From the NCBI RefSeq assembly GCF_013378075.1, contig NZ_CP051131.1, positions 1,426,001 to 1,490,000 on the forward strand: DNA of 64,000 nt, read 5' to 3'. The translations under genes and the position numbers were made by a program. This document shows, piece by piece, positions 1 through 14,469 of this stretch (position 1 is its first letter; each line of letters begins with the position of its first letter). The notes under the pieces were generated by a model, which saw only the letters and a list, made by a program, of their open reading frames with translations, was not told the origin of the DNA and ran no database searches. Source of the DNA: Parasphingopyxis algicola (GTDB taxonomy: Bacteria; Pseudomonadota; Alphaproteobacteria; Sphingomonadales; Sphingomonadaceae).

Positions 1-191
1 ACGCGCTGCGACGCCCGCGATGATTACAAGCGACGAGAGCGTCATCCGTCAGGATTGTCTCGGATATCTGATGGCGCCGCTCTGATTTGTCCTGGATCAA
101 AATTCCCGGCATCGATCGCGCTACAGTCGTCGAACCGACCGGGTTTCGGTCGCATGGTCGAATACGCAACAGGCTGAGGAGATAAGAGACT

Positions 192-437
192 ATGTCACAT
201 GTACCGCACGAACTGGCGGAGGAATTTCCGGACCATGTCGATCGGCTTCACGACCTCAAGGTCGGCAATGCCCATTTCGCGAAGCTGGCCGACGAATACC
301 ACACGATCAACCGCGAGATTCACCGGATCGAAAGCGGTGTCGAGCCGGGAACCGACGAGCGCACCACGGTGCTGCGCAAACAGCGGCTCGAGTTGAAAGA
401 CGAGATCGCGGCGATGATATTCGAAACCGCCCGGTAG
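192..437 (+). CDS. YdcH-like DUF465 small protein
   Basis: An 81-residue acidic, almost wholly alpha-helical protein. Its central and C-terminal part carries the pattern of the YdcH/DUF465 family: a helix with FAKLADEYHTINREIHRIE, a short turn, and a second helix with LRKQRLELKDEIAAMI. The length is normal for the family, whose members are short antiparallel coiled-coil proteins of unknown role. The start ATG follows a purine-rich stretch (gaggagataagagact). It stands alone, upstream of a gene on the other strand, and nothing nearby hints at its function. Confidence 0.9.
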   Translation: MSHVPHELAEEFPDHVDRLHDLKVGNAHFAKLADEYHTINREIHRIESGVEPGTDERTTVLRKQRLELKDEIAAMIFETAR

Positions 438-465
438 CCATCGGCCAATTGCCGCAGACCGCCGA

Positions 466-1323
466 TCAGTATGCGGCCGGCGGCGCCCATTCGGTATCGG
501 CCAGATACGCCAGTTTGTCGGGAAGGACCGGCGCATAGGGCGCATCGTACCGGAAAGGCGCCTGCTCGTCCGTCCATTGATTGACATGCCGTCCACCGAC
601 GAAGCGGATCAGGGACACGCATCCCCAGCGCGCGCCGAATGGGCCGTGAGCAATGCCCGGCGGCCGCCAGAAATAGGCGCCGGGATACATGGTACCGAAC
701 GGGCCGGTCAGCGACCCGGCGATCAGATACGCCTCTTCCACCACCGGATGCATTTCCTGCGGTCCTTCCCCGGTCGGCGGTGCGCTTTGCGGCAGGATGA
801 GCGACAGGAAGGTGCGCTCGCCGGTAACGGGATCGGTGCGCAGATTCTTGCGCGAAATGCCCAGATGCCGAAGATTGGGATCGTTCAGGGTCATGTCCCA
901 CTCCATCGCGGCCGCATCGATATGTGGAATGGCGCGGGATGCATCCTCTTCGGCCAGTTCGCCCTTGTCGGGCATCAGCGTCGGTTCGCGATCGTAAAAG
1001 GCCAGCAGGGCGCAGCCGTCCGGCGCGCTCATCGAGCGGCGCGTCCACCCGGCCGGCAGATAGGCATAACTATCGGCCGGATAGACATGATCGTCCATAT
1101 GCAGTGCGCCTTCGAGCACGTAGAATTCTTCGCTCGCGGCGATATGCTCGGGCCCTTCGCGCGACCAGCCCGCCGGATAGCGTATCAGCGCCGTACAGGC
1201 GCCATCGGCGGGATCCCGGCTCAACATCTTGTATTCGGCGTCCGGCCTGGCGAGCCCCGCGCCGATCCGCCGCCAGGGCAGCATCTGGGCCTGGACGAAT
1301 TCGATATGATCGCGCGTCAGCAT
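466..1323 (-). CDS. Bicupin protein, DUF4437-like
   Basis: About 285 residues forming two cupin (double-stranded beta-helix) repeats. The first repeat has the region EEFYVLEGALHMDDHVYPAD followed by YLPAGW. The second has VVEEAYLIAGSLTGPFGTM followed by YFWRPPGIAHGPFG. This two-repeat layout fits the DUF4437 group. Such proteins bind a metal or small ligand and the substrate here is unknown. An upstream in-frame ATG at 1344 exists, but the ATG at 1323 is preceded by GGGAGGG at good spacing and is preferred. It lies just downstream of, and on the same strand as, the sulfotransferase and glycosyltransferase genes, with a gap of about 100 bp. Confidence 0.82.
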   Translation of the reverse strand: MLTRDHIEFVQAQMLPWRRIGAGLARPDAEYKMLSRDPADGACTALIRYPAGWSREGPEHIAASEEFYVLEGALHMDDHVYPADSYAYLPAGWTRRSMSAPDGCALLAFYDREPTLMPDKGELAEEDASRAIPHIDAAAMEWDMTLNDPNLRHLGISRKNLRTDPVTGERTFLSLILPQSAPPTGEGPQEMHPVVEEAYLIAGSLTGPFGTMYPGAYFWRPPGIAHGPFGARWGCVSLIRFVGGRHVNQWTDEQAPFRYDAPYAPVLPDKLAYLADTEWAPPAAY

Positions 1324-1427
1324 GGAACGCCCTCCCGATGGCATTGCAAGACGGACAATCCATAGATCCGCCGCCGGCCGCTGCTTTGATCTATCTCAAC
1401 GGCCTCTCCCGAGCCTGGCGTGCCGGA

Positions 1428-2135
1428 TCAGTCCGAAGCGGCCTCTTTCAGGTCCCGGTAAAGGCGTCGGGTTCGATCGGGTATCACCAACTCGGCGCCC
1501 GTGCCGTTCCGTTGCGCCGTCCTGAGCGACGCTTCGAAGAACCGCTCATCCGACCGCGCAGGATCGAGCCCGAGCCGTTCGCAGATCGCGGCCAGGCGAT
1601 CGAGATAGCGATCGGAGTCCGTATCGAAATCGACCAACGGAAACCGTTCGCGCCGCCAGAGCGCGAACAGCCGTTCGTTGTAGTGATGCCAGAGATCGAC
1701 GAACGCGCCCGAAGTGCCAAACTCCGGATTGCGCTTCAGCAACGACCGGGCGACGGCGACAGGGCTGCGAACGGTTCCCACGAATTCGGCGTCGGGAAGC
1801 GCAGCACGCCAACCGTCGAGCAGCAGCAATAAGCGGGGATCCTTGAGCCCCCAAGGGCTTCTGCCCCGATAGTCGGCTATGATTGCGTCACGCCGGGCCC
1901 GATGATCCGCCTGCCACTCCATCCGCGGCGGCGGGCGGTGCCAGGCACCTCCGTTCGATGTGAGAATCTCCTCATTGAGCAACATGACTTTCTTGTTTTC
2001 GCGATTGCCCTTCCGGTTGTGCGGCGATGCCTCGATCACATCGCCTAGGAAAAGCCCGGCCGATTGCAGTGTGCCGGCGAGCGCGCTGGTGCCGCTTCGG
2101 TGCATGCCGAGGATGAGGATGACACGACCGGTCAT
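1428..2135 (-). CDS. Sulfotransferase family protein
   Basis: About 235 residues. The N-terminus has a P-loop-like 5'-phosphosulfate-binding motif (LGMHRSGTSALAGTLQSAG). A second conserved segment, GTVRSPVAVARSLLKRN, corresponds to the 3'-phosphate-binding region of PAPS-dependent sulfotransferases. The ATG at 2135 has GGGGAGA six bases upstream and is chosen over an in-frame ATG at 2219, which would overlap the preceding gene. The likely reaction is sulfate transfer from PAPS to a glycan or lipid acceptor. The acceptor cannot be read from sequence. It follows the glycosyltransferase-like gene with a 37-bp gap, so the two are probably co-transcribed. Confidence 0.85.
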   Translation of the reverse strand: MTGRVILILGMHRSGTSALAGTLQSAGLFLGDVIEASPHNRKGNRENKKVMLLNEEILTSNGGAWHRPPPRMEWQADHRARRDAIIADYRGRSPWGLKDPRLLLLLDGWRAALPDAEFVGTVRSPVAVARSLLKRNPEFGTSGAFVDLWHHYNERLFALWRRERFPLVDFDTDSDRYLDRLAAICERLGLDPARSDERFFEASLRTAQRNGTGAELVIPDRTRRLYRDLKEAASD

Positions 2136-2172
2136 GCGTCTCCCCTTGCCGTTCCCTTCGGCTCGCGCATCG

Positions 2173-3078
2173 TCAGCCGGCATGGAGCGCGAAGAATTTT
2201 TCGCGATGCTCCCGGTCATAGTCGGGATAATCGTATATATTCAGCAAGGAGAGATGCCGATGGGCGACCTCGGTCGAGATGAGCGACTGCCAACCCTTCG
2301 CCCTCAACGCCTTGTGCATCGCCGTATCGCGGTCGAATCCGATCTCGGCAAATGCCTTTTTCCGCATGACGAGCAACCGCAGGGGCGGACAATGCGGCGA
2401 AATCAGCGGATCGTCGACATGGACGTACCGGCGCATCGGCGCCCGTGCCTTGATGAGGAAGGTCAGGTCCTCCTCGCTCATATCGGGGCAGAGTTTCCGC
2501 GCCTGTTCCATATCGACGAAATCGGGCTGGTAGACACGGGATCCGATCGAACCGATTTCGGGATCAGCGCGCATGTGAGACAGGATCGTTTCCAGCCAGC
2601 ATCGTTCGGTTTCCACGACCGCCGTATCGCCCTCGATGAAGACGAAAAACTCGTCGATCTCGTCCCAATAGCGCTCGATGAGCTTCTCGAAACGCCGCGG
2701 GTGATTTTCAGAGCAGAAATGGACGGCTTCGAACATGCCGCGCCGATCGAAACCGTCGATCACATTGCGCACCAGCGGATCGCCGGAGGCGTTATCGGCG
2801 AGGACGAACCGGCAGGGCGACCGGGTCCCCCGATAGAAGCTGTCCAGGCATGCCCACAGATAGATCGGCCGTTCCCAGCTCAGAATAAAGGCATGCGGCC
2901 CGCCGCCGGTGTCTTCACAGATAGGCACGCGCTGTCTATCGACGATCTCCATGCCCGACGCAATCCGCGCCTCCGCAAAATCCGGCAGTCTTTCCGCCAA
3001 ACCGGGGACCGATTGGGAAAGGGTCCGGGGCGGAATGGCGAAGCGCGCGACCCGCAATGTGCTGCGCTCGCGCGGCAA
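2173..3078 (-). CDS. Glycosyltransferase-like protein (family 2 type fold)
   Basis: Up to 301 residues. Features of a GT-A type nucleotide-sugar transferase are HAFILSWERPIYLWACLDSF near residue 62, FVLADNASGDPLV (DNxS motif typical of GT2), and FFVFIEGDTAVVE, an acidic metal-binding-like position. The start is uncertain. The longest frame opens with a TTG at 3078, which would overlap the ATG of the divergent sulfotransferase. The first in-frame ATG is at 2952 and would leave a more usual 125-bp divergent promoter region, but the intervening residues look coding. Its neighbours are two sulfotransferases, which suggests assembly of a sulfated surface glycan. Confidence 0.75.
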   Translation of the reverse strand: MPRERSTLRVARFAIPPRTLSQSVPGLAERLPDFAEARIASGMEIVDRQRVPICEDTGGGPHAFILSWERPIYLWACLDSFYRGTRSPCRFVLADNASGDPLVRNVIDGFDRRGMFEAVHFCSENHPRRFEKLIERYWDEIDEFFVFIEGDTAVVETERCWLETILSHMRADPEIGSIGSRVYQPDFVDMEQARKLCPDMSEEDLTFLIKARAPMRRYVHVDDPLISPHCPPLRLLVMRKKAFAEIGFDRDTAMHKALRAKGWQSLISTEVAHRHLSLLNIYDYPDYDREHREKFFALHAG

Positions 3079-3851
3079 TGACTGACGTGCCGAAAGTCGA
3101 TTTTCTCGTCGTCGGCGTACAAAAAGCCGGAACGACGGCGCTATACCAGTTTCTGCGCTCGCATCCCCGGCTTTTCCTGCACCGCAAGGCCAAGGAATTG
3201 CATTTCTTCGACCGGGATCATCTTATAGACTGGGCGTCGCCCGACTATTCGCGCTACGAGGCCATGTTCGCCGGCAAGCAGCCTGGGCAATATGCAGGCG
3301 AAGCGACGCCAGCCTATGCGTTCTGGCCGCGATCGCCCGAACGCATCGCGCGGTACAATCCCCAAATGCGACTGATCATGTGCCTGCGGGACCCGGCAGA
3401 CCGGGCTTTTTCGCACTGGCAGATGGAGAGTCAGCGCGGCAACGAGTGGTTGAATTTAGCCGATGCGGTGCGGACCGGACGTCACAGGACGTTGATCAAC
3501 GACAAAAGCCTGCGGCGTTTCAGCTATGTCGAACGGGGGTTTTACGGCGAACAGATCGCCCGCCTGCACGACCATTTTCCGAAGGACCAGCTACTCGTGA
3601 CAACGCATGACGCAATGCGCGCCGACTTGCCGGCCTTTCTGGATATGATTTGCCGCTTTCTCGATATCGCGCCGTTCGCCGATTATCCCGAAAACCGGAC
3701 GATCCGGCCGCAGCAAATGAGCGCCCCCGCCGGTGCGCCGGATCCTGCCGAAATCGAGTATCTGCGCACGCTCTATCGGGACGATATAGAAAAAACCGAG
3801 GCCCTGACCGGACTCGACCTGTCAGCCTGGCGGACGGGCGTGTCAGTCTGA
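3078..3851 (+). CDS. PAPS-dependent sulfotransferase (PF00685 type)
   Basis: 257 residues. The N-terminal VDFLVVGVQKAGTTALYQFL is the 5'-phosphosulfate loop. KELHFFDRD, GEATPAYAFW and the 3'-phosphate region LIMCLRDPADRAFSHWQME follow in the order seen in heparan-sulfate N-sulfotransferase-like enzymes. The frame extends upstream to 3057, but the ATG at 3078 starts the conserved fold. It is divergent from the glycosyltransferase gene. The reaction (sulfuryl transfer from PAPS) is well supported by family knowledge. The acceptor is unknown. Confidence 0.88.
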   Translation: MTDVPKVDFLVVGVQKAGTTALYQFLRSHPRLFLHRKAKELHFFDRDHLIDWASPDYSRYEAMFAGKQPGQYAGEATPAYAFWPRSPERIARYNPQMRLIMCLRDPADRAFSHWQMESQRGNEWLNLADAVRTGRHRTLINDKSLRRFSYVERGFYGEQIARLHDHFPKDQLLVTTHDAMRADLPAFLDMICRFLDIAPFADYPENRTIRPQQMSAPAGAPDPAEIEYLRTLYRDDIEKTEALTGLDLSAWRTGVSV

Positions 3852-3877
3852 TCCGCTCCCTGTCCGGCGATACCCGG

Positions 3878-4327
3878 CTATTCCGCCCTTACCGCCCATT
3901 CACTGCCGGCCAAGCTTGGCGGGACGACGGTCTCGATATTCAGCTGGCCTTTGAGGCCGGCCGTTCTGTGGACGCTGATCTCCTGCCATTCGGGCGACAT
4001 CGACATGCGGACCATGTCGGCGCGAGACGGATAGGAAGCGATGGCGATCTCGTCCCACAGCTCCTCGACCTGGCCGAGCGACAGGAAGGTGACATCGCCT
4101 AAAAATACCGGCTTCCCTCCGAATTTCGGAAGGAGTTCGGCGACTGCCTTGCCGTAGATCGCATAGGCTTCGCGGCCTGTAAGATCGGTTTCGCGGCCGT
4201 CCGCATATTCGGCCCTGTCCTTGAACTTGAGCAGATTGACCATGAATATGGGCCCCTCCGGCCCCGGCTCCATCAACCCCTTGATACGATCCGGATCGGT
4301 CGGCGTTACCTCGTTCAGGACTTCCAT
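3878..4327 (-). CDS. DUF1330 dimeric alpha-beta barrel protein
   Basis: 149 residues starting at an ATG preceded by AGGAGA. The stretch GPIFMVNLLKFKDRAEY followed by GREAYAIYGKAVAELLPKFG and later SRADMVRMSMSPEWQEI matches DUF1330/EthD-like proteins of the dimeric ferredoxin-like alpha-beta barrel group. No catalytic role is established. It begins 14 bp after the end of speD, so it is the last gene of the polyamine operon by position. Whether it takes part in polyamine metabolism is inference from location only. Confidence 0.8.
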   Translation of the reverse strand: MEVLNEVTPTDPDRIKGLMEPGPEGPIFMVNLLKFKDRAEYADGRETDLTGREAYAIYGKAVAELLPKFGGKPVFLGDVTFLSLGQVEELWDEIAIASYPSRADMVRMSMSPEWQEISVHRTAGLKGQLNIETVVPPSLAGSEWAVRAE

Positions 4328-4341
4328 ACCGGTCTCCTTCC

Positions 4342-4725
4342 TCAGTCGACGAGCGCGGCAACGCCGTAGCCACGCGCGATCGTCCGTCTGGCGATGTCCG
4401 CCGGCGCGAAGGCGTCCGCCAGCACCCGCAGCGCCGCATCGATATCGTGGCGCCGGCCGCACAGGAACAGGTCGAGCGCGGCGTAATCATGTTCGGGCCA
4501 GGTGTGGATCGACAGATGCGATTCCGCGAGCAGGGCGACGCCCGTCACCCCCTGCCCCTGGCCGAAATGATGGAGATTGAGATCGAGGATCGTCGCGCCG
4601 GCCGTCTGCGCCGCATCGCGCAGCGCGCGTTCGACAAGCCCGATATCGTCGAGCGGCGCTGCGCAGCCATGAAAGTCCGCCAGCACATGGCGGCCGTCAT
4701 AGGGTAAGGGCGGCCTAACCGTCAT
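4342..4725 (-). CDS. speD: S-adenosylmethionine decarboxylase proenzyme
   Basis: 127 residues, the size of the short prokaryotic (class 1B) AdoMet decarboxylase. The motif LAESHLSIHTWPEHDYAA contains the Glu-Ser self-cleavage site that generates the pyruvoyl cofactor. The His in SIHTWPE and the Cys in LDLFLCG are the other conserved catalytic positions. The N-terminal GRHVLADFHGC is also typical. The product, decarboxylated AdoMet, is the aminopropyl donor for spermidine synthase. It overlaps the spermidine synthase gene by 11 bp, so translation is probably coupled. Confidence 0.95.
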   Translation of the reverse strand: MTVRPPLPYDGRHVLADFHGCAAPLDDIGLVERALRDAAQTAGATILDLNLHHFGQGQGVTGVALLAESHLSIHTWPEHDYAALDLFLCGRRHDIDAALRVLADAFAPADIARRTIARGYGVAALVD

Positions 4726-6259
4726 AGCGCCGCCATTCGTCGGCGAAGGTGCGCACGAGGAGCTGATTGTCGAGCCGGTTCGGCTCGGCCGCGACGGGCG
4801 CCATATCCGGCGGGAATTCGAACAGGGCGGGTTCGGAATCGGCGGTCACGAAACGGCCGCCCGGCAGGATCTCGGCGTCTTCCGGCACGCCGGCCGGCGA
4901 GGCGAGGATGAAACCCCATTCGCCGAAGCTCGGAACATAGGCATGATAGGGCCGTGTCTCGAAACCGGCCGCCTCCAGCGTCGCGGCGATCGTCCAGAAG
5001 GCGCGCGGCGCGACATAGGGCGAGCCGCTCTGCACCGAAACCATCCCGCCCGGCGCCAGCCGGTTGCGAAGCGCGCGGTAGAAGCTTGTTGTGTATAGCT
5101 TGCCGAGCGAGAAATCGGTGGGATCGGGAAAGTCGATGACGATCGCATCGTACAGTCCATCATCCTCGCGGACCCAGCGGAAACCGTCCGCGTTGATCAC
5201 CGTCATCCGGGAATCGCTGAGCGAACCGTCATTGAGCCGGGCGAGCAACGGCGTATCGCGAAACAATCGCGTCATCGCCGGATCGAGATCGACCAGGGTG
5301 ACGCGCTCGACCTCGGGATGGCGGAGCACTTCGCGCGCCGCGAGCCCGTCGCCGCCGCCGAGGATCAGCACATTGCGCGGGTTTTCCACACGGCCAAGAT
5401 TGGGGAGCACCAGCGCCTCATGATAACGATATTCGTCGAGCGAAGAAAATTGCAGATTGCCGTTCAGGAACAGCGAGACATTGTCGCCCCGCCGGGTCAG
5501 CACGATGCGCTGGAACGGCGTCGAGGTCGCATGGATAATCGGCTCGTCGATACTCGCGGTCTCGGCCAGCCGCTGGAACCGTTCGGCGCCGAGAAAGCCG
5601 ATGACGAGCGACGCAGCGACCAGCGACCCGGCCAGCATCTCGACCGGCAGGCGCCTGCTCCTGGGCTGGATGGCGATCAACGCGATCGCGACCACGACAT
5701 TGAGCAGCCCGAACAGGAAGCCGGTGCGGATCATCCCGATGAACGGCATCAGGATCAGCGGGAAAAGCAGCGACGCGGCAAGCGCGCCGACATAGTCGAA
5801 GGTCAGGACGGTCGAGACGGTCTCTCGGAAGTCGAAATCCTCGCGCAGGATCTGCATCAGCAGCGGGATTTCGAGACCGACGAGAAAGCCGATGACGAGA
5901 ACCAGCGCATAAAGAGCGACGCGGAACTCATCGACGACCGGGAAGAGCATAAAGAGGATCGCCGCTGCCCAACCGCCGATCAGCGCGATCAGGATTTCGG
6001 CACGAATGAAGAGCCTTAGCTCATCCTTCTTCACATAGCGTGAGAACCAGCTGCCGATCCCCATCGCGAACAGATAGACACCGATGATCGTGGAAAACTG
6101 GGTAACGCTGTCGCCGAGCAGATAGCTGGCAATGGTGCTGGCGAGCAGCTGATAGACGAGCCCGCAGATCGCGACGACGAAGACCGACGCGATCAGGGCA
6201 TAGGCGAGCGGCCCTGCATGGCCCCCGGACCGGGGCTCGGGCGCGGCCGTGTCAGCCAA
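4715..6259 (-). CDS. speE: Membrane-anchored spermidine synthase (polyamine aminopropyltransferase)
   Basis: 514 residues, roughly twice a soluble SpeE. The first about 215 residues form around seven hydrophobic membrane segments. A Rossmann-type aminopropyltransferase domain follows, with VLILGGGDGLAAREVLRH (decarboxylated-AdoMet binding), VTLVDLDPAM, and the catalytic YDAIVIDFPDP segment. This is the known long, membrane-fused architecture of SpeE homologues. The start overlaps the DUF350 gene by 8 bp and the end overlaps speD by 11 bp. The expected reaction is transfer of an aminopropyl group to putrescine or another amine at the membrane. Acceptor specificity is not determinable here. Confidence 0.92.
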   Translation of the reverse strand: MADTAAPEPRSGGHAGPLAYALIASVFVVAICGLVYQLLASTIASYLLGDSVTQFSTIIGVYLFAMGIGSWFSRYVKKDELRLFIRAEILIALIGGWAAAILFMLFPVVDEFRVALYALVLVIGFLVGLEIPLLMQILREDFDFRETVSTVLTFDYVGALAASLLFPLILMPFIGMIRTGFLFGLLNVVVAIALIAIQPRSRRLPVEMLAGSLVAASLVIGFLGAERFQRLAETASIDEPIIHATSTPFQRIVLTRRGDNVSLFLNGNLQFSSLDEYRYHEALVLPNLGRVENPRNVLILGGGDGLAAREVLRHPEVERVTLVDLDPAMTRLFRDTPLLARLNDGSLSDSRMTVINADGFRWVREDDGLYDAIVIDFPDPTDFSLGKLYTTSFYRALRNRLAPGGMVSVQSGSPYVAPRAFWTIAATLEAAGFETRPYHAYVPSFGEWGFILASPAGVPEDAEILPGGRFVTADSEPALFEFPPDMAPVAAEPNRLDNQLLVRTFADEWRRYDG

Positions 6260-6467
6260 CGATCGCGGCCGCCACGATGATCGACAGGCCCAGCGCGATG
6301 GCGCCGGCGAATATGGCTACCGCGACATTCTGCTTCTTCTCGATCTCTTCCCAGAGGCTGCCCGGGGTCAGCAGGTCGAGAATGACGAAGGCGACGACCA
6401 TGACGAAGATGCCGACGCCCGCGTAGAGCAGCGTCGCGCCCACTAGATAAAAGCTGAATAGGTTCAT
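6252..6467 (-). CDS. DUF350 small integral membrane protein
   Basis: About 71 residues with two hydrophobic helices: LVGATLLYAGVGIFVMVVAF and, after a short charged loop (LWEEIEKKQNV), VAIFAGAIALGLSIIVAAAI. This is the DUF350 pattern, shorter than many members, which have four segments. The ATG at 6467 has GGGAGA upstream. The open frame continues upstream to 6605, but that part is non-conserved and overlaps the adjacent small gene's territory. It overlaps the spermidine synthase start, which indicates coupled translation. Function is unknown. DUF350 genes are known to occur beside polyamine-type genes and band-7 genes. Confidence 0.85.
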   Translation of the reverse strand: MNLFSFYLVGATLLYAGVGIFVMVVAFVILDLLTPGSLWEEIEKKQNVAVAIFAGAIALGLSIIVAAAIVG

Positions 6468-6504
6468 GACTGGCTCTCCCTGATAATCTCTCTTGCGCTC
6501 AAAA

Positions 6505-6666
6505 TCATTTGTGCCGCGGCCCGCGGCCGATAAAGACGCCGCCCGGTCCGACGCCGCTCGCGCGTTGACCATCGGCGAAAGGCGAATAGCCGCTGAACGA
6601 GGCATAGGCGAAACCCGATGTCACGAGCAGGCACCACAATCCGAAAATGAAAACCCCGCGATTCAT
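6505..6666 (-). CDS. 53-residue membrane or secreted peptide in the polyamine operon
   Basis: A short frame read directly from the minus strand: ATG with GGAGAGA just upstream, 53 codons, then TGA. The N-terminus (MNRGVFIFGLWCLLVTSGFA) is a single hydrophobic helix or signal-anchor. The tail is short, Gly-rich and basic (GVGPGGVFIGRGPRHK). It sits exactly in the gap between the DUF4178 gene (24 bp upstream) and the DUF350 gene (37 bp downstream). Good ribosome-binding site, compact spacing and a sensible hydrophobic N-terminus argue that it is real. I do not recognise a family. Confidence 0.7.
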   Translation of the reverse strand: MNRGVFIFGLWCLLVTSGFAYASFSGYSPFADGQRASGVGPGGVFIGRGPRHK

Positions 6667-6690
6667 GGTCTCTCTCCGAACATCATGGCC

Positions 6691-8061
6691 TCAATCATCG
6701 TCACCTCCCGCGAAATCGCTGTCCGACTTCCGGCGCGATTCAAAGCTCAGATGCTTGAACCATTGCCAGAGCGCCGGGGCGAACACGACCAGCAACGCAA
6801 GGAAGAGGTTCGAGTAGAAGGTCGCGCCCTTCTCGATCGTCACGTCGACCTGCGCGTTGCTGCTGCTGCCGAACTGGCTTTGTGTCCAGCGGCTTCCCGC
6901 CGCGAACACGTTGAGCTCATAAGTTCCTGCCGGAATCATCGAGAATTTGCTGGTCGAATAGCTGCTCCCCTCGGACCAGTTGCCCTCCGCATCCCGACCC
7001 GAATAGCGTTCGACGACATTGTTCGCCTCGAATATCTCGCCCGTATCGCGATTGGTCAGCGTATAGGTGAGATCGATCCAACTATTCTCGATCCCCGGCG
7101 CCTGGGCCGAAACCGTGACCGCCTGGCGCGGGCGATCCAGGACGATCGGCCCGACCTTGGCGGTCTGCTCGACGCCGTTGGTCGCGAGATTGATTCGCGT
7201 CGTTTGCGGATCGCTGGTTCCCCCGAACAGGAATGTGATGACAAGCAGGGCGACAGCCACCGCCACCGCCAGTTTCATGAATTGCCCGGCCTTTTGGCGA
7301 TAGGGCGATGGCTGATGAGGCAGCGGCAAACCTCCGCCCTTGGGCGGATCGATGCCGAAGGCGTCGGTAATCTCGTGCGGTTCGAGCAGTTCGGACAGCG
7401 TCCAGACCGTCTCGTTGCGCGTTCGTTCCCAGCTTAGCATCTTGCCGGGCCGGACGAAATCGGCCGTCAGCGCCTCGTCGCCGACCTTCACGCGCCAGTA
7501 GAACTCGCCGAGCACATAATCGACCTGCGCGCGGGTCTGGGCATAGAAGGGCTCGTAGAATTCGCCATCGACCTCGAAGCCGACCAGCGTCTTCTTTTCG
7601 GGCGCCGCGGTGAGCTGCCGCCCCAGGCTCCAGCCGCGTCCGTCGGTGTCCAGAAACGCGTAGCCCTCGTACGGATTGAACAGCAGATATTCGTCCCACG
7701 GATATTGACCGTTCTCCGAACGGCGCTGATAGCCGATCACTTCCCATTCGGTGCCACGCATCATGCCCCTGCTGCCAAGCGGCAGTTCGAGCTTACGGAC
7801 TTCGCCTTCGTAACGCTGGATTATACTGACATCGGGATTACTGACATCCAGCGTGGACCCGCAATATTGGCAGGCGATGCTGACCGAATAGCCGGCTGCC
7901 TTGATCTCCACCGTGCCGCCGCAATTGGGACAGTTGAACTGTTCGGCGGCGGGCGCGCTGTCGCTTTCGGACGGCACGACGATGCGCTCGGCCGTCGGCC
8001 CTGCCGCTGCTTCCGGGGCCGGTTCGCCCCAGGGGTTGGGCCGATCGTCCTCAGGCGGCAT
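6691..8061 (-). CDS. DUF4178 protein with zinc ribbon and C-terminal membrane segments
   Basis: About 456 residues. The N-terminal region is Pro/Ala-rich. A zinc ribbon (FNCPNCGGTVEI, then IACQYCGSTLDV) follows. A DUF4178 domain has GTEWEVIGYQRR and YPWDEYLLFNPYEGYAFLD. A membrane helix (FMKLAVAVAVALLVITFLFG) leads to a beta-rich domain, and a second helix lies near the C-terminus (FYSNLFLALLVVFAPALWQW). The chosen ATG (8061) overlaps the end of the upstream DUF4178 gene by 11 bp. Role unknown. The context ties it to the SPFH and polyamine genes. Confidence 0.88.
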   Translation of the reverse strand: MPPEDDRPNPWGEPAPEAAAGPTAERIVVPSESDSAPAAEQFNCPNCGGTVEIKAAGYSVSIACQYCGSTLDVSNPDVSIIQRYEGEVRKLELPLGSRGMMRGTEWEVIGYQRRSENGQYPWDEYLLFNPYEGYAFLDTDGRGWSLGRQLTAAPEKKTLVGFEVDGEFYEPFYAQTRAQVDYVLGEFYWRVKVGDEALTADFVRPGKMLSWERTRNETVWTLSELLEPHEITDAFGIDPPKGGGLPLPHQPSPYRQKAGQFMKLAVAVAVALLVITFLFGGTSDPQTTRINLATNGVEQTAKVGPIVLDRPRQAVTVSAQAPGIENSWIDLTYTLTNRDTGEIFEANNVVERYSGRDAEGNWSEGSSYSTSKFSMIPAGTYELNVFAAGSRWTQSQFGSSSNAQVDVTIEKGATFYSNLFLALLVVFAPALWQWFKHLSFESRRKSDSDFAGGDDD

Positions 8062-8725
8062 AATCGGGCATCTTCCAGCCATGGATAGCGCGCAGATTTT
8101 TGGGGTTGAGTTCGGCCAGCGTCACATAGTGCCCCATATAGAAGGCCGGGTCCTCGTCTTCCTCCAGCTCGAAATTCGCCGAGAATCCGTCGGCATCGCG
8201 AAGATCGACATTGAAGACTTCCCAACCCGTCGACGGCGCGAAGGGCAGTTCGCCCTCCGCCGCCACACAGGTCGCCATACGCGCATCGGCGACGACGAAC
8301 TCGGAACCGTCGATCTGCGTGCGATCGCCGATCCGGGCCTTCTTACCCTTCGCCAGTCCCCGGATCAGCTTGGAGCGGATTTCCTTGAGCGGTCGCTCGA
8401 TAACCATCTGGAACTGGCCGTCGGACTCGCTGAGCCAGCCATGCGTCATGTCCGAAAACAGGCAGAGCCAGTCGTTCCACGCCCCCTGGTCATAGGCCAG
8501 ACGAATGCGACCGATGACATCGAAATGCTTGCCGCCATATTCGCCGCGCGTGCCGATCTGGATCGGGCTCACATCGAACGGCAGCACAGCGACTTCGCCG
8601 GCCAGCTCGACGCCGTCGGCGATGCGCTTCACCGTACTGTGGCAATAGTCGCAGATGCGGGCGGGCAGCGCGGGCGAGCGGAAGATCACTTCCGCACCGC
8701 AGTTGGGGCAGTTTTCGGACTGCAT
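8051..8725 (-). CDS. DUF4178 protein with N-terminal zinc ribbon
   Basis: 224 residues beginning with a four-cysteine zinc ribbon (CPNCGAEVIF and ARICDYCHSTV). It continues with two DUF4178-like beta-rich blocks: IQIGTRGEYGGKHFDVIGRI with NDWLCLFSDMTHGWLSES, and KKARIGDRTQIDGSEFVV. There are no membrane segments, so it is probably cytoplasmic and associated with its membrane-bound paralogue. It follows the SPFH gene by 28 bp and overlaps the next gene. The two DUF4178 proteins look like a divergent duplicated pair that could form a complex. That is inference. Confidence 0.87.
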   Translation of the reverse strand: MQSENCPNCGAEVIFRSPALPARICDYCHSTVKRIADGVELAGEVAVLPFDVSPIQIGTRGEYGGKHFDVIGRIRLAYDQGAWNDWLCLFSDMTHGWLSESDGQFQMVIERPLKEIRSKLIRGLAKGKKARIGDRTQIDGSEFVVADARMATCVAAEGELPFAPSTGWEVFNVDLRDADGFSANFELEEDEDPAFYMGHYVTLAELNPKNLRAIHGWKMPDYAA

Positions 8726-8753
8726 CGCCTCGCCTGATTCCCCCTCGTCGCGC

Positions 8754-9761
8754 CTAGACCTGGCTCAGCAGATCGGCTTTTTTGGCCTCGAATTCTTCCT
8801 TGCTGATTGCGCCCATCTCGTGAAGCTTGTGCAGCTTCTCGATCTGTTCGAACGGATCGGCTGCTGGAGCCGCGGGCGCAGCCGGGGCCGCCGGCGCGGC
8901 GGCTGGCTGTTGAGCCAGCGCGCCGGCCATGGTCTGGCCGATCGCCATGCCCGCACCCGCGCCAGCGCCGAGACCGGCCATGCCGCCTTCCTGTTCGGCG
9001 GCCTTTTCGATCGCCTCGGCGGCCTGGAATTTCGCATATTGATCGAGATCGCCCAGTACGCGCATCGAGCTTTTCTTGTCGAGATGCTTCTGCACGGCTT
9101 CGGGCAGCGAAACGCTTTCGACGAAGAAGGTCGGTACTTCGAGGCCATATTGCTCGAACGCCGGTCCCACGGCTTCCTTCAGCGCTTCGGAAAGCTTCTG
9201 CTGGCTCGCCGCGAGATCGATGAACGGTACGTCCCCGCTGCCGAGGCCCGTCGCGAGCGCCGTCATGATCGCGGCGCGCAATTGCGGTTCGATCGAACCG
9301 ACCGTGACCCGGTCGAGCGTCCCGACCAGCGCGGCATAGAAGGGCGCGATATCCTTGATCCGGAACGAATAGGTGCCGAATGCGCGCAGGCGGATCGGGC
9401 CGAGCTCGGGATCGCGAATGGTGACCGGCTGCGCCGTACCCCATTTCAGGTTCACCTGCTCCTTCTGCGAGAAGAAATAGACGTCCGTCTTGAACGGCGA
9501 TTTGAACGCCTTGTCCCAGTTTCGCAGGTTGGTGAGGATCGGCATGCTCGACGTGTCGAGCGTGTGCAGCCCAGGTCCGTACATATCGGCGAGAACGCCT
9601 TCGTCGATGACCACAGCGGCCTGCGTCTCGCGCACCGTGAGCTGGGCGCCGTTCTGGATCTCATTGTCGGCGAAATCGATCTTTTCGGCGAGTTCGCCGG
9701 GCTCCTCCTCCCACTCGATGACATCGACAAATTGTTTCGAAATGAAATCCCTGAGGCCCAT
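8754..9761 (-). CDS. SPFH/band-7 (virion-core-like, YdjI-type) protein with C-terminal SHOCT
   Basis: 335 residues. The N-terminus (MGLRDFISKQFVDVIEWEEE) and the block LTVRETQAAVVIDEGVLADM match the SPFH-related virion-core/YdjI group. A long helical region follows to about residue 250 and an Ala/Pro linker to about 297. A SHOCT motif ends the protein (IEKLHKLHEMGAISKEEFEA). SPFH proteins form membrane-microdomain scaffolds. YdjI-type members are linked to envelope stress. It is the first gene of the minus-strand run that ends in speD/DUF1330. A strong terminator for the preceding receptor gene lies about 120 bp upstream. Confidence 0.9.
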   Translation of the reverse strand: MGLRDFISKQFVDVIEWEEEPGELAEKIDFADNEIQNGAQLTVRETQAAVVIDEGVLADMYGPGLHTLDTSSMPILTNLRNWDKAFKSPFKTDVYFFSQKEQVNLKWGTAQPVTIRDPELGPIRLRAFGTYSFRIKDIAPFYAALVGTLDRVTVGSIEPQLRAAIMTALATGLGSGDVPFIDLAASQQKLSEALKEAVGPAFEQYGLEVPTFFVESVSLPEAVQKHLDKKSSMRVLGDLDQYAKFQAAEAIEKAAEQEGGMAGLGAGAGAGMAIGQTMAGALAQQPAAAPAAPAAPAAPAADPFEQIEKLHKLHEMGAISKEEFEAKKADLLSQV

Positions 9762-9876
9762 CGCATCACTCCCTTTTCCGTGCGGACATTAGCGTTGCCG
9801 CGCGCACGCGCCAACCATGTTACTGATATAGGGTGGCAACACGCGAATTTTTAGGGGGCGGACCGGAAAATCGACG

Positions 9877-9910
9877 AAAAAAGGGCGAGAAAGCATGCTT
9901 CCCCGCCCTT
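9877..9910 (-). terminator. Intrinsic terminator of the TonB receptor gene
   Basis: On the minus strand AAGGGCG pairs with CGCCCTT around an inner palindromic AAGCATGCTT, and the stem is followed directly by a run of six T residues. It begins about 23 bp after the receptor stop codon. It separates the receptor gene from the SPFH-polyamine operon. Confidence 0.85.
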
Positions 9911-9932
9911 CCGCTGAGACCGTGACCAGGTC

Positions 9933-12659
9933 CTAGAAGGTCGTACTGAGGCCGAAAGAGACGCTGCGACCGCGTTCGTAGCTCAATGCGTCGATCGTCG
10001 AGCCGTCCGGCGCGCGATAGAATTCGCGGAAATCCTCGTTGAGGATATTGCGAACCTCGAGCGTCGCCTGCAATTCCTGGCCGAACAGGGTGAGCGCCTG
10101 GCGCCAGACGAAATCGAGCTGAATCCGGCCCTCCTCGCGGATATCCGGCGCGTCGCCGATCGGCGACCGGTTGGTGATCCGGTCGCTGGTATAGGTCAAC
10201 AGGATCGACTGTTGCGAGAGCCGGTCCTCATCCTCGAGGCTGAGTTGCAGGTTGACGATATGGTCCGACTGGCCGGTCAGGGCGACGCCGTCGATGAAAT
10301 AGCTGGTCGCCGGCTGCGGATCCGAGAAGCCCGGCACGATGACCGCGTCGCCATCGCTCACCGAGATTTCCGATTGTGTGTAAGTATAGTTGACCTGCGC
10401 ACGCAGCCGCCGCGAGGAGAACAGCCCACCCCAGTCGTAGAGCGGGAAGAATTTCACCAGCTCCGTCTCGAAACCGTAAAGCGTCGCCGCCGGCGCGTTG
10501 AGGAAGGTGACGTTGATGTCATTGTCCCCGCTCGTCGCCAGCTGCTCGATCGGGTTGTCGATATCCTTGTAAAAGGCGGCGATGCTGAACAGCTCGTCGC
10601 GCTGGAAATACCATTCGAAACGCGCTTCGGCGTTGAACAGCTCGGTGTCGATCAGGCCCGGATTGCCGCGGAAGGTGCGGTCGTTATCCGGGTCGGTATA
10701 GGACGGCGCCGCGAGCTCGCGGAACTGGGGCCGGCCGATCGTCCGCGAGGCGCCGAGGCGCAACTGCATGTCCTCGGCGAAGTTCCAGGTCAGCGTAGCC
10801 GCCGGGAGCCAATAGTCATTGTCGAGCGGCGGTGCGACGAAGAGCGGGTTTACCTCGAAACCGAAGAACGGAAGCGGCGTCACGCTCTGGGTCGCATCTT
10901 CGTACCGGACGCCGGCGGCGATGCTGAAACCGTCGAAAATCTCAACGTCCAGCTGGCCATAGCCGGCATGGACTTCCAGTTCGGCCGTATAGGCATCGCC
11001 GCCCTGTGCATCGGTCCGTTCCTCGACGAAGATATCGTAAAAGCCGAGGATCGCGTCGGAAAAGAGGAAATCCGGGCGCAGCTGGCTCACCTCGAACGGC
11101 AGACCGCCCTGCCGCTGGGTGACGAAGCGGAAAGCGCGCCGCTCGAAATCGCGCTCGTTCAGATAATAGGCATAGCCCGCATTGATATCGAAGCGCCGCC
11201 CGGTCGGAACGCTGTAGGTCAGATCGATCTGCGCGCCGTATACATTGTCGTCGAGGTTGGAAAAGCTCAACAAATCCGTCTGACCGCCGGTCCGCGTATC
11301 ATGGATGAAATCATTGGCGGTCGTATCGAAGGCATATTGGATCTCGCGCTCATAGGGCGCTTCGCGCTGCGCATTGGCGTAACTGCCGCGCAGATCGATA
11401 TTGAGATTGTCGAATTCGAACTCGCCGACCAGCTGGGTGCTGATCAGCTGCCGTTCGAACCATTCGGTGTTCTGGTTGTTCTGGATCCGGCCGGTGTTGC
11501 GGACCGGGCTTACCGATGTGCTGATCCGCGCTTCCTTCGCGGTGTCGCGGATATACAGGTTCGTGAAACGGATCTGGTGCTCGCCGAATTCGGCGCCGAT
11601 CCCGACCAGGCCGTTCACGACGATCCGGTTTTGCGTCGACAGAAAGCGATAATCGGAAACGTTGGGCGTGATCGTCTGGTCGTCATTGGTGAATTCGCCC
11701 TGCTGACGGAGGCCGCCGCGGGTTTCCCAGCTATTGTCCCAGCCGGCCGTCGCCACGAAACCGAGCCGGAAATCGCTGCCGATATCGATATAGGTGCCGC
11801 CGGTAACGTTGACGCTCCCGTTGAACGGTATGTCGTCGTTGCGCTGCACGAGGTTGATATTGGCGTTCTGGAAGCTGCGCGAGATATCCGCGATGTCGGC
11901 CACGAAGCCGGGAGCCGACGGATCGCTGAACTCGGGCTGGTCGAAACGGATGCGTACGCCGCTGTCGAGTGCGGTCTGCACGATCGTCGGGATGTCGCGC
12001 GTGCCATCGTCGAATCCGGTCCAGTCCGTGTCGCTGCCATAATAGGTATAACCGGTTTCCAGCGTGGTTTCGGAGTTCCCGCTCACGCTGCCGCTGAACG
12101 TGATGAAGGGCTCGTCGGGTACCGCGCGGGTCGTGAGATTGATCACGCCGCCGCCAAATTCGCCCGTATAATTGACCGAATAGGTCTTCTGGACCAGCGA
12201 ACTCGCAAGAATGCTCGTCGGGAAGAGATCGAGCGGAACCGTGCGCTTCAATGGTTCGGGCGACGGCAGGGGCGATCCGTTGAGCAGCGCCAGCGAATAG
12301 CGTTCGCCGAGACCGCGGACATAGACGAACCGGCCGCCGACCAGGCTGAGACCCGAAACGCGCTGGAGGGCGCCCGCGGCATCTCCCTCGCCCGTCCGGG
12401 CCAGGTCTTCGGTCGACAGGACCGAAAGCACTTCGGAGGATTCGCGAATCGGCTCGGGTATGTACCGGCCGGTCACGACGATGGGCGTACCGCTGCCGCC
12501 GCCGGTCGAGATATCGACATCGTCCCGGGTTTCATCCTCGTCGGGCGTTTCGGTTTCGGCAGCCTCGTCGACCGGTCCTACGGTCTGCGCGACGGCTGCC
12601 GGTGCAGTCAGCGCGCTCGATACGAGCAGGAGGCCCGCGAGCTTCAATGTCTTGGTCAT
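9933..12659 (-). CDS. TonB-dependent outer-membrane receptor
   Basis: About 908 residues. A signal peptide (MTKTLKLAGLLLVSSALTAP...AVAQ) precedes an acidic linker and a plug domain (GTPIVVTGRYIPEP, GLSLVGGRFVYVRGLGERYS, GEFGGGVINLTTR). A long beta-barrel follows and ends in an aromatic residue (SVSFGLSTTF), as required for barrel assembly. The ATG at 12659 starts the signal peptide. The frame upstream is non-conserved. It follows a lipoprotein gene by 77 bp on the same strand. Receptors of this subtype paired with a beta-helix lipoprotein are known in caulobacters and sphingomonads. The substrate is not established from the sequence. Confidence 0.93.
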   Translation of the reverse strand: MTKTLKLAGLLLVSSALTAPAAVAQTVGPVDEAAETETPDEDETRDDVDISTGGGSGTPIVVTGRYIPEPIRESSEVLSVLSTEDLARTGEGDAAGALQRVSGLSLVGGRFVYVRGLGERYSLALLNGSPLPSPEPLKRTVPLDLFPTSILASSLVQKTYSVNYTGEFGGGVINLTTRAVPDEPFITFSGSVSGNSETTLETGYTYYGSDTDWTGFDDGTRDIPTIVQTALDSGVRIRFDQPEFSDPSAPGFVADIADISRSFQNANINLVQRNDDIPFNGSVNVTGGTYIDIGSDFRLGFVATAGWDNSWETRGGLRQQGEFTNDDQTITPNVSDYRFLSTQNRIVVNGLVGIGAEFGEHQIRFTNLYIRDTAKEARISTSVSPVRNTGRIQNNQNTEWFERQLISTQLVGEFEFDNLNIDLRGSYANAQREAPYEREIQYAFDTTANDFIHDTRTGGQTDLLSFSNLDDNVYGAQIDLTYSVPTGRRFDINAGYAYYLNERDFERRAFRFVTQRQGGLPFEVSQLRPDFLFSDAILGFYDIFVEERTDAQGGDAYTAELEVHAGYGQLDVEIFDGFSIAAGVRYEDATQSVTPLPFFGFEVNPLFVAPPLDNDYWLPAATLTWNFAEDMQLRLGASRTIGRPQFRELAAPSYTDPDNDRTFRGNPGLIDTELFNAEARFEWYFQRDELFSIAAFYKDIDNPIEQLATSGDNDINVTFLNAPAATLYGFETELVKFFPLYDWGGLFSSRRLRAQVNYTYTQSEISVSDGDAVIVPGFSDPQPATSYFIDGVALTGQSDHIVNLQLSLEDEDRLSQQSILLTYTSDRITNRSPIGDAPDIREEGRIQLDFVWRQALTLFGQELQATLEVRNILNEDFREFYRAPDGSTIDALSYERGRSVSFGLSTTF

Positions 12660-12736
12660 GGCGACTCTCTTCAAAGCGTGTGGAAACATGACGGGGCGAC
12701 GGCCGGAACTGGCCGCCGCCCGCGCATGATCGCGGG

Positions 12737-14290
12737 TTAGCCGTAGAAGGGCGTGACCAGGCAGGAGAGCGTCGCGCTGCCGGTGTCCTGATCGTCCGAT
12801 CCGAACAGGCCGCACGTCCAGTCCTGCGTCCAGGGCGTCGCCGCGGCCTGGTCCACCGCACCGATATAATCGACCGTATCGATCGACGGATCGGTGAAGG
12901 CGGTGACCGCGTCTTCGTTCGGCCCGTTGACGAACCCGTCCGTCAACGAGGTGGTGAACGAAGCATCGTTATTGGCACCCATGTTGAACAAGGTCTGGAT
13001 GTCGGCTGCCGAGATATCGCCTTCGCTGCCGAAGGCCGTCGGGCAGTCGATCACGACCGACTGGAAGTCGGGCATGCCATCGTCGATCGTCTCCTGATCG
13101 GCGACATTCAGACATTCCGCACTGCCGGTGATGACACCGTTCCAATATTGGCCGCCGATCCCCTCGCGGATCAGAACGCCGAAGTCGGTGCTGCCCCCTC
13201 CGCCGTAGAAGGTGAAGTTGGCAAAGGTCGGATCCGAACGCGGCAGATCGTCGAAGCGCGAATCGGCTTCGATGAAGTGATCGCCGCCGGCCGCGCGCTG
13301 GCGCACGATGATGAACTGGTTGACGCCGACATAGCCGCTATCGACGTCGAGACTGTCATCGTCGGCGCCGGTGACGACGAGGTGATCCCCGTTCACGGTC
13401 CCGCCGAACCATTCGAAGCCGTCGTCCGAGCTGTTGTGAACCTGGACGTAGCTGATCTCGGTACCGCTGCCGACGCCGCCCAGCGAGATGCCGTTCAGCT
13501 CATTGCCGGTGCTGACCTCGAAACCCGGATAGCGGACCTGGACATAGCGCAACGTACCGCTGTCGTCTGCGGCCTGATCGCCGCCGTAAAAGGCGCCGGA
13601 CGTGCCTTCGATTTCGGTCTGGCAATCGGCGGCGCCGCCGGTCGCCGTCCCGTCGCAGTCGTTGATCGGGGCGCGGCCGAGGATGACGAGACCGCCGAAC
13701 AGGCCGATCGAGTCCTCGTTGACCGTCCCCGAACCGTCCGTCTCGTTCTGGAAATTGGCACGCGCCGTAAAGGTGATCGGCTGCGTCTGGGTGCCGATGG
13801 CGTTCAGCTGCGAACCGCGCTGCACGACCAGGAAGTCAGCCGTACCGGCGCCGATCACGACGACGCCGGGATCGATGTTGAGAATGCCCTGCGTGCCGCC
13901 GGCCGCCAGGCCGTCACCACCCACATCGACGCCGACATCGACGCGGCCGTTGAGCGAGTAGACGACGCCGTCGAGCTTCTCCAGCCTGACCGTACCCGTG
14001 ATCGTCCCGCCAATCCGGCAGATGCGGAAATCGACCGTGCCGTCGTCGTCACCGTCGATCGTGCCGTCATTGGTCGTCCCCATCGGGCAGTCCGCGGCCG
14101 GGGTGATCGAGGCGAAACGTTCGGTCGAAGGGGCCGGGCCAGAGGGCGGGGGCGGCGGAGGCGGCGGCGCCGGTGTCGACGGCGTTACGACGACAATATT
14201 GCCTTCGCCGGGCGATGCGACATCGTCGGCGCCGCAGGCGGCAAGCGGAATAGCGGCGCTCATCATGAGCATGATGCGAGTACGTGACAT
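12737..14290 (-). CDS. Large surface or secreted lipoprotein with beta-helix-like repeats
   Basis: 517 residues. The N-terminus has a lipobox (IPLAACGADD, Cys19), then a Pro-rich linker with a run of eight prolines. A long Gly/Asp/Val-rich body follows, with repeated strand-turn patterns (GTEISYVQVHNSSDDGFEWFGG, trimmed to ISYVQVHNSSDDGFEWFG; LDVDSGYVGVNQFIIV) typical of a right-handed parallel beta-helix. The residue after the lipobox Cys is Gly. It is the promoter-proximal partner of the TonB receptor. A PHO-box-like element lies 100-130 bp upstream. The likely role is a surface-exposed binding or processing partner of the receptor, possibly exported by type II secretion. The last two points are inference. 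Confidence 0.85.
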   Translation of the reverse strand: MSRTRIMLMMSAAIPLAACGADDVASPGEGNIVVVTPSTPAPPPPPPPPSGPAPSTERFASITPAADCPMGTTNDGTIDGDDDGTVDFRICRIGGTITGTVRLEKLDGVVYSLNGRVDVGVDVGGDGLAAGGTQGILNIDPGVVVIGAGTADFLVVQRGSQLNAIGTQTQPITFTARANFQNETDGSGTVNEDSIGLFGGLVILGRAPINDCDGTATGGAADCQTEIEGTSGAFYGGDQAADDSGTLRYVQVRYPGFEVSTGNELNGISLGGVGSGTEISYVQVHNSSDDGFEWFGGTVNGDHLVVTGADDDSLDVDSGYVGVNQFIIVRQRAAGGDHFIEADSRFDDLPRSDPTFANFTFYGGGGSTDFGVLIREGIGGQYWNGVITGSAECLNVADQETIDDGMPDFQSVVIDCPTAFGSEGDISAADIQTLFNMGANNDASFTTSLTDGFVNGPNEDAVTAFTDPSIDTVDYIGAVDQAAATPWTQDWTCGLFGSDDQDTGSATLSCLVTPFYG

Positions 14291-14390
14291 GTAGAAAACC
14301 CCTTTGGACCGAAATTAGCCGTGACGAACCGCGAGCTATGGGAGCCGGCGGGTTCCGGTGCTGCGTCTATGGGGAGCGTGTGATTCCTTG

Positions 14391-14419
14391 ATGACGGACT
14401 CTTTGTGCTTTTATGACAC
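14391..14419 (-). promoter_or_regulatory. PHO-box-like element upstream of the lipoprotein gene
   Basis: On the plus strand ATGACGG and ATGACAC begin exactly 22 bp apart, which is two 11-bp steps. Between them lies the weaker TTTGTGC at the 11-bp step, with a TTTT spacer. The consensus PHO box has 7-bp half-sites (CTGTCAT in the other orientation) spaced by 4 A/T-rich bases. Two of the three positions match well. It lies about 100 bp upstream of the lipoprotein ATG, in the correct orientation. Family knowledge links this type of locus with phosphate starvation. Confidence 0.45.
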
Positions 14420-14469
14420 CCGCCGAAACGAAAATGTCACAAAGCTTACGGGCCCGCTAATATGCTGCG

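Follow-up and report, generated by a model that had tools for sequence, protein, structure and literature searches.

What does an operon build when it sets enzymes of polyamine synthesis beside a membrane scaffold protein, two proteins of the family DUF4178 and a peptide of only 53 amino acids (aa)? The question is raised by Parasphingopyxis algicola, whose genome of 3.67 Mb forms one contig (NZ_CP051131.1) and of which we analyzed a window of 64,000 nucleotides, positions 1,426,001-1,490,000 of the forward strand. The operon lies at 3878-9761 of this window and comprises eight minus-strand reading frames that overlap or are separated by short gaps, in the order SPFH-SHOCT, DUF4178 (soluble), DUF4178 (membrane), 53-aa peptide, DUF350, the aminopropyltransferase SpeE, the S-adenosylmethionine (AdoMet) decarboxylase SpeD, and DUF1330. 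Reading frames and Pfam bore out this layout, which had been described in an earlier note on the same DNA, and seven of the eight proteins passed curated cut-offs (Band_7_1 with SHOCT, DUF4178 twice, DUF350, Spermine_synth, AdoMet_dc, and DUF1330). The earlier note took the SPFH protein for the organizing center of a system that makes or attaches a polyamine at the inner membrane under stress. Our analysis redirects this reading, with partial support, to the lysine that ends the short peptide. Tentatively, we propose that these genes specify machinery of the cell envelope that may extend the C-terminal lysine of a membrane-anchored tail with aminopropyl (polyamine) units, a reading based on sequence comparison that we regard as plausible but short of probable.

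The operon core and its lysine-ended tail

We compared positions 1-15000 of the window with 108 fetched loci, drawn from all 28 other genomes with a DUF4178 match in our Sphingomonadales and Pseudomonadota sets and from the 80 named loci that ranked best among at least 580 in a contig scan with SpeE. The 80 named loci span groups of Pseudomonadota, Bacteroidetes, Acidobacteria, Verrucomicrobia, Gemmatimonas, Leptospiraceae, Elusimicrobia, and Fibrobacteres; since many of them were assembled from metagenomes, some may contain binning errors. The operon core recurs across several phyla. Of the 109 stretches, at least 107 carried SpeE, 97 DUF4178, 95 DUF350, 74 a flavin oxidase, 67 SpeD, and 52 SPFH, with PspA and CesT in 5 each; these are lower bounds because many contigs are short, and the first two counts are partly set by design, stretches having been selected through DUF4178 or through similarity to the window SpeE. 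Of the earlier reading, a membrane polyamine system is upheld, conserved here with its membrane-fused aminopropyltransferase and, in 67 stretches, SpeD. The SPFH protein, present in 52 stretches, is an optional membrane-scaffold partner, and a role as organizing center is not supported. DUF1330 drops out of the conserved unit, since it was seen only in the window and in L040.

The scattered order in relatives that the earlier note named as a refutation is seen only in part: many loci kept the gene order, some operons were split, and the system is rare in its own order. In the order Sphingomonadales, 6 of 196 genomes carried DUF4178, P. algicola included, and in the phylum the figure was 26 of 398, again with P. 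algicola. Full-length membrane SpeE (E < 1e-100) was found in seven of the 196 genomes of the order, namely all six with DUF4178 and G109; many of the other 65 SpeE matches in that search were weak or covered the catalytic part only. All nine searched genomes whose SpeE locus had no DUF4178 nearby carried DUF4178 elsewhere. By the models used, 12 of the 109 stretches were without DUF4178, namely these nine and three others. In L051 and L055, Pfam DUF4178 does match (at 23.7 bits, below the cut-off, and 35.6 bits, above it, respectively) and a large protein ending in lysine (K) precedes DUF350, and L086, a 3.3-kb contig in which the models detected no DUF4178, has a K-ended peptide.

The 53-aa peptide (6505..6666, minus strand), our proposed acceptor, has a hydrophobic anchor and ends in GRGPRHK, its last lysine being encoded by the AAA codon at 6508..6510, directly 5' of the stop codon. 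Neither Pfam nor NCBIfam nor PHROGs gave a family match for it. Compared with L040, from the same genus, the gene differs by 16 synonymous and 4 non-synonymous codon changes, and compared with L070 by 17 and 11 (raw counts, uncorrected for the number of sites), which suggests purifying selection. A counterpart ending in GPSHK is annotated as a protein gene in the plasmid record of Novosphingobium sp. ES2-1. From its sequence, then, the peptide looks like a real gene. Relatives have a small open reading frame (ORF) at the same place and with the same plan, a hydrophobic anchor, often a tail rich in glycine and serine, and a final lysine, with little sequence likeness between lineages. In several loci without a separate peptide, the DUF4178 protein itself ends in a transmembrane helix and such a tail (e.g., ...GGYSSGGGHK).

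Three rules were used to count these endings in the 97 DUF4178 loci. The first, blind to the last residue, left 4 loci without a pick and gave lysine in 87 of 93 picks; the six others (L089, L090, L113, L115, L122, and L144) were wrong picks, K-ended peptides being found in those loci. A stricter rule that demanded a ribosome-site-like match found a K-ended tail in 75 of the 97 loci, with ends in Asp at 31 loci and in Glu at 21, the DUF4178 proteins' own ends included. Under the final rule, which dropped the ribosome-site demand, lowered the hydrophobicity limit, and was loosened after the earlier counts had been seen, 96 of the 97 loci had a K-ended tail, 80 as free peptides and 16 fused to a DUF4178 protein. 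The fused class asks for lysine by definition, so the control covers the free class: for no other final residue were free hydrophobic ORFs found in more than 4 loci. The sole miss was L058, from a genome that is 71% complete, where SpeE is absent from the stretch. The 96 tails ended in HK (75), GK (16), VK (3), or IK (2), and the final codon, among 87 K-ending tails, was AAA in 57 and AAG in 30. Only 4 of 324 partner proteins ended in lysine (SPFH 2/53, DUF350 0/96, SpeE 1/108, SpeD 1/67).

The ending is found in further settings. Solitalea agri (L092, 4440-7910) carries two tandem DUF4178-tail-DUF350 cassettes, both with tails ending in SYYHK, and larger or lipoprotein-like variants end in RRGK or RSGK. 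In G109, which has no Pfam DUF4178, a DUF350-like gene and SpeE are preceded by a lipoprotein-like protein ending in SRGGK (assignments made by eye). On a plasmid of Alteromonas mediterranea, a 510-aa hypothetical protein in the operon ends in SSGK (L186:6932-13590), and an unannotated ORF in an Ensifer plasmid record ends in ESGK. The Alteromonas operon also carries a gene annotated as a toxic anion resistance protein.

The aminopropyltransferase, its predicted position, and its possible supply

SpeE (4715..6259, minus strand) scored 643.5 bits against a cut-off of 472 with NCBIfam NF002956 and is the only Spermine_synth match in the P. algicola genome. Its AlphaFold model (predicted local distance difference test, pLDDT, 88.7) places seven membrane helices (residues 17-223; 5591..6211) before an aminopropyltransferase domain (residues 241-514; 4718..5539), which matched solved aminopropyltransferases with E-values down to 3.5e-56 (Foldseek best 1uir). 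Among 107 homologs, 19 of 22 listed catalytic-domain columns were invariant and the other three were kept in 104, 106, and 106. The Asp, Tyr, and Gln columns, which we take to be catalytic, and the GGGDG motif of spermidine synthases were invariant in all 107. SpeE thus shares fold and catalytic residues with the soluble spermidine and thermospermine synthases (1uir, 3anx, 6bq2), and it differs from them in its seven-helix membrane domain, its predicted outside location, and its companion lysine tail. Seven predicted helices and a charge bias set it apart from the soluble cytosolic enzyme that spermidine synthase usually denotes.

This bias lies in the loops between helices. In all 107 homologs, lysine and arginine (K/R) were more numerous in loops 2, 4, and 6 (mean 8.9) than in loops 1, 3, and 5 (mean 2.1), the even-loop windows being slightly longer overall (49 vs. 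42 reference residues). The positive-inside rule therefore predicts a catalytic domain outside the cytoplasm. The stretch after helix 7 was net negative on average, and helix 7 was as hydrophobic as the other helices. Cysteine content was also tried as a test of topology and set aside as not diagnostic, because SPFH (0.08%) was still lower than the SpeE catalytic domain (0.22%).

SpeD (4342..4725, minus strand) is of the class 1b type, scores 116.8 bits with TIGR03330 (cut-off 75.65), and is the only AdoMet_dc match in the genome. By eye, the processing-site residues Ser, His, and Cys named in PMC10407285 are present (ESHLSIHTWPE...LFLCG). That paper also describes an alternative ornithine or arginine decarboxylase function of SpeD-like proteins; we set this role aside given the TIGR03330 score and the adjoining sole genomic SpeE, which is not proof.

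In 74 of the 109 stretches, flavoproteins of about 540 aa stand beside SpeE or between SpeE and SpeD (e.g., L041:3439-5070). Of the 74 best matches, 14 could not be scored at the N-terminus; 41 of the remaining 60 had a twin arginine followed by a hydrophobic run, 24 were of the stricter RR-x-F type, and 24 had a lipobox-like cysteine. Two of these oxidases were run against Pfam, where that of L065 passed Amino_oxidase and that of L041 passed NAD_binding_8 only.

Related systems and the proposed chemistry of the tail

The association of these genes is itself not new. Ravi et al. (2024, mSystems, PMC11237479) describe, as their second group, a PspA-CesT/Tir operon with a spermidine synthase fused to seven transmembrane helices, DUF350, DUF4178, and a lipoprotein, mention a related polyamine operon in a band-7/SHOCT version, and suggest that the system monitors polyamines or the aminopropylation of other substrates. 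The window operon likewise joins such a SpeE to DUF350, DUF4178, a small membrane or lipoprotein member, and a membrane-dynamics partner. It differs in having SPFH-SHOCT and no CesT/Tir-PspA dyad, in including SpeD, and in the short peptide that stands in the place of the lipoprotein. The lysine-tailed peptide may fill the role of the Ctha_1186-type lipoprotein of that operon. The main text of PMC11237479 nowhere uses the word "lysine", so the terminal lysine is not described there.

Escherichia coli has two sister operons. The yjfIJKLMC operon encodes proteins of the DUF350, PspA, and DUF1190 families and includes a gene named peptide--spermidine ligase; ygiBC pairs DUF1190 with a second gene of that name. 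The DUF1190 proteins end in ...HWGG (YjfM) and ...SMGG (YgiB); of those in 14 other genomes, nine end in GG, two in GS, two in SS, and one was unreadable. With the wider system the yjf operon shares DUF350, PspA, and a partner protein rich in Gly/Ser whose C-terminus is fixed, whereas it has a ligase and a Gly-Gly end where the window has an aminopropyltransferase and a lysine end (RHK). No ATP-grasp family was found among nine window proteins scanned with Pfam. By analogy, an amide-forming ligase would naturally act on a glycine end and an aminopropyltransferase on a lysine end. A 2023 paper by Pederick et al. is reported to treat a peptide--spermidine ligase and polyamine chemistry on peptides. 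YgiC and YjfC are called peptidylpolyamine synthetases in a text citing Pederick et al., 2023.

Of the two activities left open in the earlier note, attaching a polyamine fits better than making one, given the lysine tail in 96 of 97 loci and the ligase genes of the sister operons. In our proposal, SpeD would make decarboxylated AdoMet in the cytosol, and the membrane domain of SpeE, DUF350, or both would let it cross the inner membrane. On the outer face, where the tail and the SpeE catalytic domain are both predicted to lie, SpeE would move 3-aminopropyl groups onto the side chain of the terminal lysine, a four-carbon amine like putrescine. The tails should be outside because the fused version has just one helix between its presumably cytosolic N-terminal zinc-ribbon part and the tail. 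The DUF4178 proteins would hold the tail while SPFH, or PspA with CesT elsewhere, organizes the membrane patch, and the exported flavin oxidase of many relatives would then trim or oxidize the polyamine. The modified tail would thereby become a polycationic anchor that acts on anionic lipid, lipopolysaccharide, or wall. That SpeE domain, tail, and oxidase may all meet on one side favors chemistry on the tail.

Polyamine units built on protein lysine side chains are known from silaffin and hypusine in eukaryotes. The modification proposed for the tail would be analogous, with the difference that those cases involve other organisms, other enzymes, and internal lysines, not a C-terminal one. In the open-licence PMC literature, no kept C-terminal lysine, free-or-fused tail, or outside aminopropyltransferase was described among the titles and abstract openings listed, and phrases for lysine aminopropylation gave no paper. 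A wider claim, more speculative than the proposal itself, is that this is a widespread bacterial post-translational modification, in which decarboxylated AdoMet crosses the membrane, an extracytoplasmic aminopropyltransferase builds the polyamine on the tail lysine, and an exported oxidase often follows, the tail acting as a transferable C-terminal tag (free, as a DUF4178 fusion, or as a lipoprotein).

Several observations weigh against chemistry on the tail. Decarboxylated AdoMet is not known to occur outside the cytoplasm, so that a catalytic domain on that side would depend on a transport step that is unproven. The topology itself derives from a predicted model and from charge bias; although the K/R count is one-sided, loop 5 has the same net charge (+1.1) as loop 4 (+1.1), and only 31% of homologs have two or more K/R at the N-terminus. 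In seven of the nine split genomes the tail lies beside DUF4178 while SpeE is elsewhere (of the other two, one contig ends too early and one shows no tail), and the tail may therefore belong to DUF4178 first. The counts come from a sample picked by DUF4178 or SpeE closeness, the tail rule with the highest count being the late, loosened one. A distant archaeal membrane SpeE on a Halorussus plasmid (L187:4445-8384) had no lysine end in the neighboring proteins that were read: this spermidine synthase occurs with DUF2617 and is preceded by two secreted-type proteins ending in VSPRI, while the two proteins that follow it have the ends DD and LR. The oxidase gene is absent from the window operon, and a similarity search of the genome, run without a positive control, did not detect one either. 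Finally, the genome has two Orn_Arg_deC_N matches, which leaves room for ordinary spermidine synthesis.

Such synthesis, placed at the membrane, is one alternative. SpeD and SpeE would then turn putrescine into spermidine or a related compound, with the membrane domain linking this synthesis to export or to use nearby, and the tail would be a small subunit, structural or regulatory, of the DUF4178/DUF350 complex. The clear aminopropyltransferase domain with its canonical columns agrees with it, as do the two decarboxylase matches and the link between polyamines and membrane stability drawn in PMC11237479. It leaves unexplained why such diverged tails keep a C-terminal lysine and fuse to DUF4178, and the charge bias would put the catalytic domain away from cytosolic putrescine; we consider it doubtful. 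Equally doubtful, in our estimate, is that the catalytic domain is cytoplasmic, with helix 7 not spanning the membrane and the tail modified in the cytosol before insertion, or never. In well-known cases AdoMet chemistry is indeed cytosolic, the charge of loop 5 agrees with this arrangement, and the low cysteine content of the domain does not speak to its side. The K/R excess of the even loops in every homolog, the net negative stretch after helix 7, and the hydrophobicity of that helix argue the other way.

Somewhat less likely again is that the tail serves as a ligand or plug, its terminal lysine docking in a pore or pocket of DUF350, DUF4178, or SpeE, where it would gate transport or signal the polyamine level by competing with free polyamines for an acidic pocket. 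A terminal lysine side chain may resemble the end of a polyamine, and the split genomes, where the tail stays with DUF4178, fit such docking, as do the Asp or Glu ends of 56 of 97 DUF4178 proteins; the idea leaves both the SpeE chemistry (107 of 109 stretches) and the flavin oxidase (74 of 109) without a role. A metal-binding tail (Gly-His-Lys-like) in a system for metal stress is very improbable: HK is the commonest ending and the DUF1190 partners of the sister system are named metal-chelating lipoproteins in PMC11237479, but the histidine is missing in 21 of 96 tails and the lysine in none.

Partner genes and what the system may mean

The remaining operon members also lie on the minus strand. 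The SPFH/Band_7_1 protein with its C-terminal SHOCT (8754..9761) matched Pfam with E-values of 4.7e-71 and 9.2e-10, respectively, and the P. algicola genome has three PspA_IM30 matches, two above the cut-off, all outside the operon. DUF4178 protein a (8051..8725; E 1.1e-12) is soluble and has visible Cys-x-x-Cys pairs in zinc-ribbon-like fashion at its N-terminus. In the AlphaFold model of the membrane protein b (6691..8082; E 3.2e-16; pLDDT 80.6), a zinc-ribbon-like part is followed by a DUF4178 beta domain, a transmembrane helix, a beta-sandwich, and a second transmembrane helix. This model had no useful match in PDB (query-normalized template modeling score, TM-score, ≤0.18 among the 50 matches listed), and we therefore draw no function from the fold. 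The acidic ends of the last DUF4178 protein often come as runs (...FAGGDDD in the window) and are a possible partner for a polycationic tail. DUF350 (6252..6467; E 8.9e-15) is a small integral membrane protein of 71 aa with a better start point at 6467, and the DUF1330 protein (3878..4327; E 6.1e-07; better start at 4327, by eye) is a lineage-specific passenger. Beside the operon, a sulfotransferase-family gene lies on the plus strand at 3057-3851, faced by a minus-strand frame at 1428-2219 that by eye looks like another sulfotransferase. A phage origin was considered and set aside; the PHROGs matches were to the SHOCT end and SpeD, with one weak match to SpeE.

If chemistry on the tail is right, several bacterial phyla would share an undescribed protein modification, polyamine chemistry at the cell envelope, and an AdoMet-derived donor would be used outside the cytoplasm. 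DUF4178, DUF350, and the membrane spermidine synthases would gain a role, one tied to the SPFH and PspA systems of membrane stress. They would also share a theme with the peptide-spermidine ligases of E. coli, namely polyamines placed on the C-terminus of glycine-rich envelope tails.

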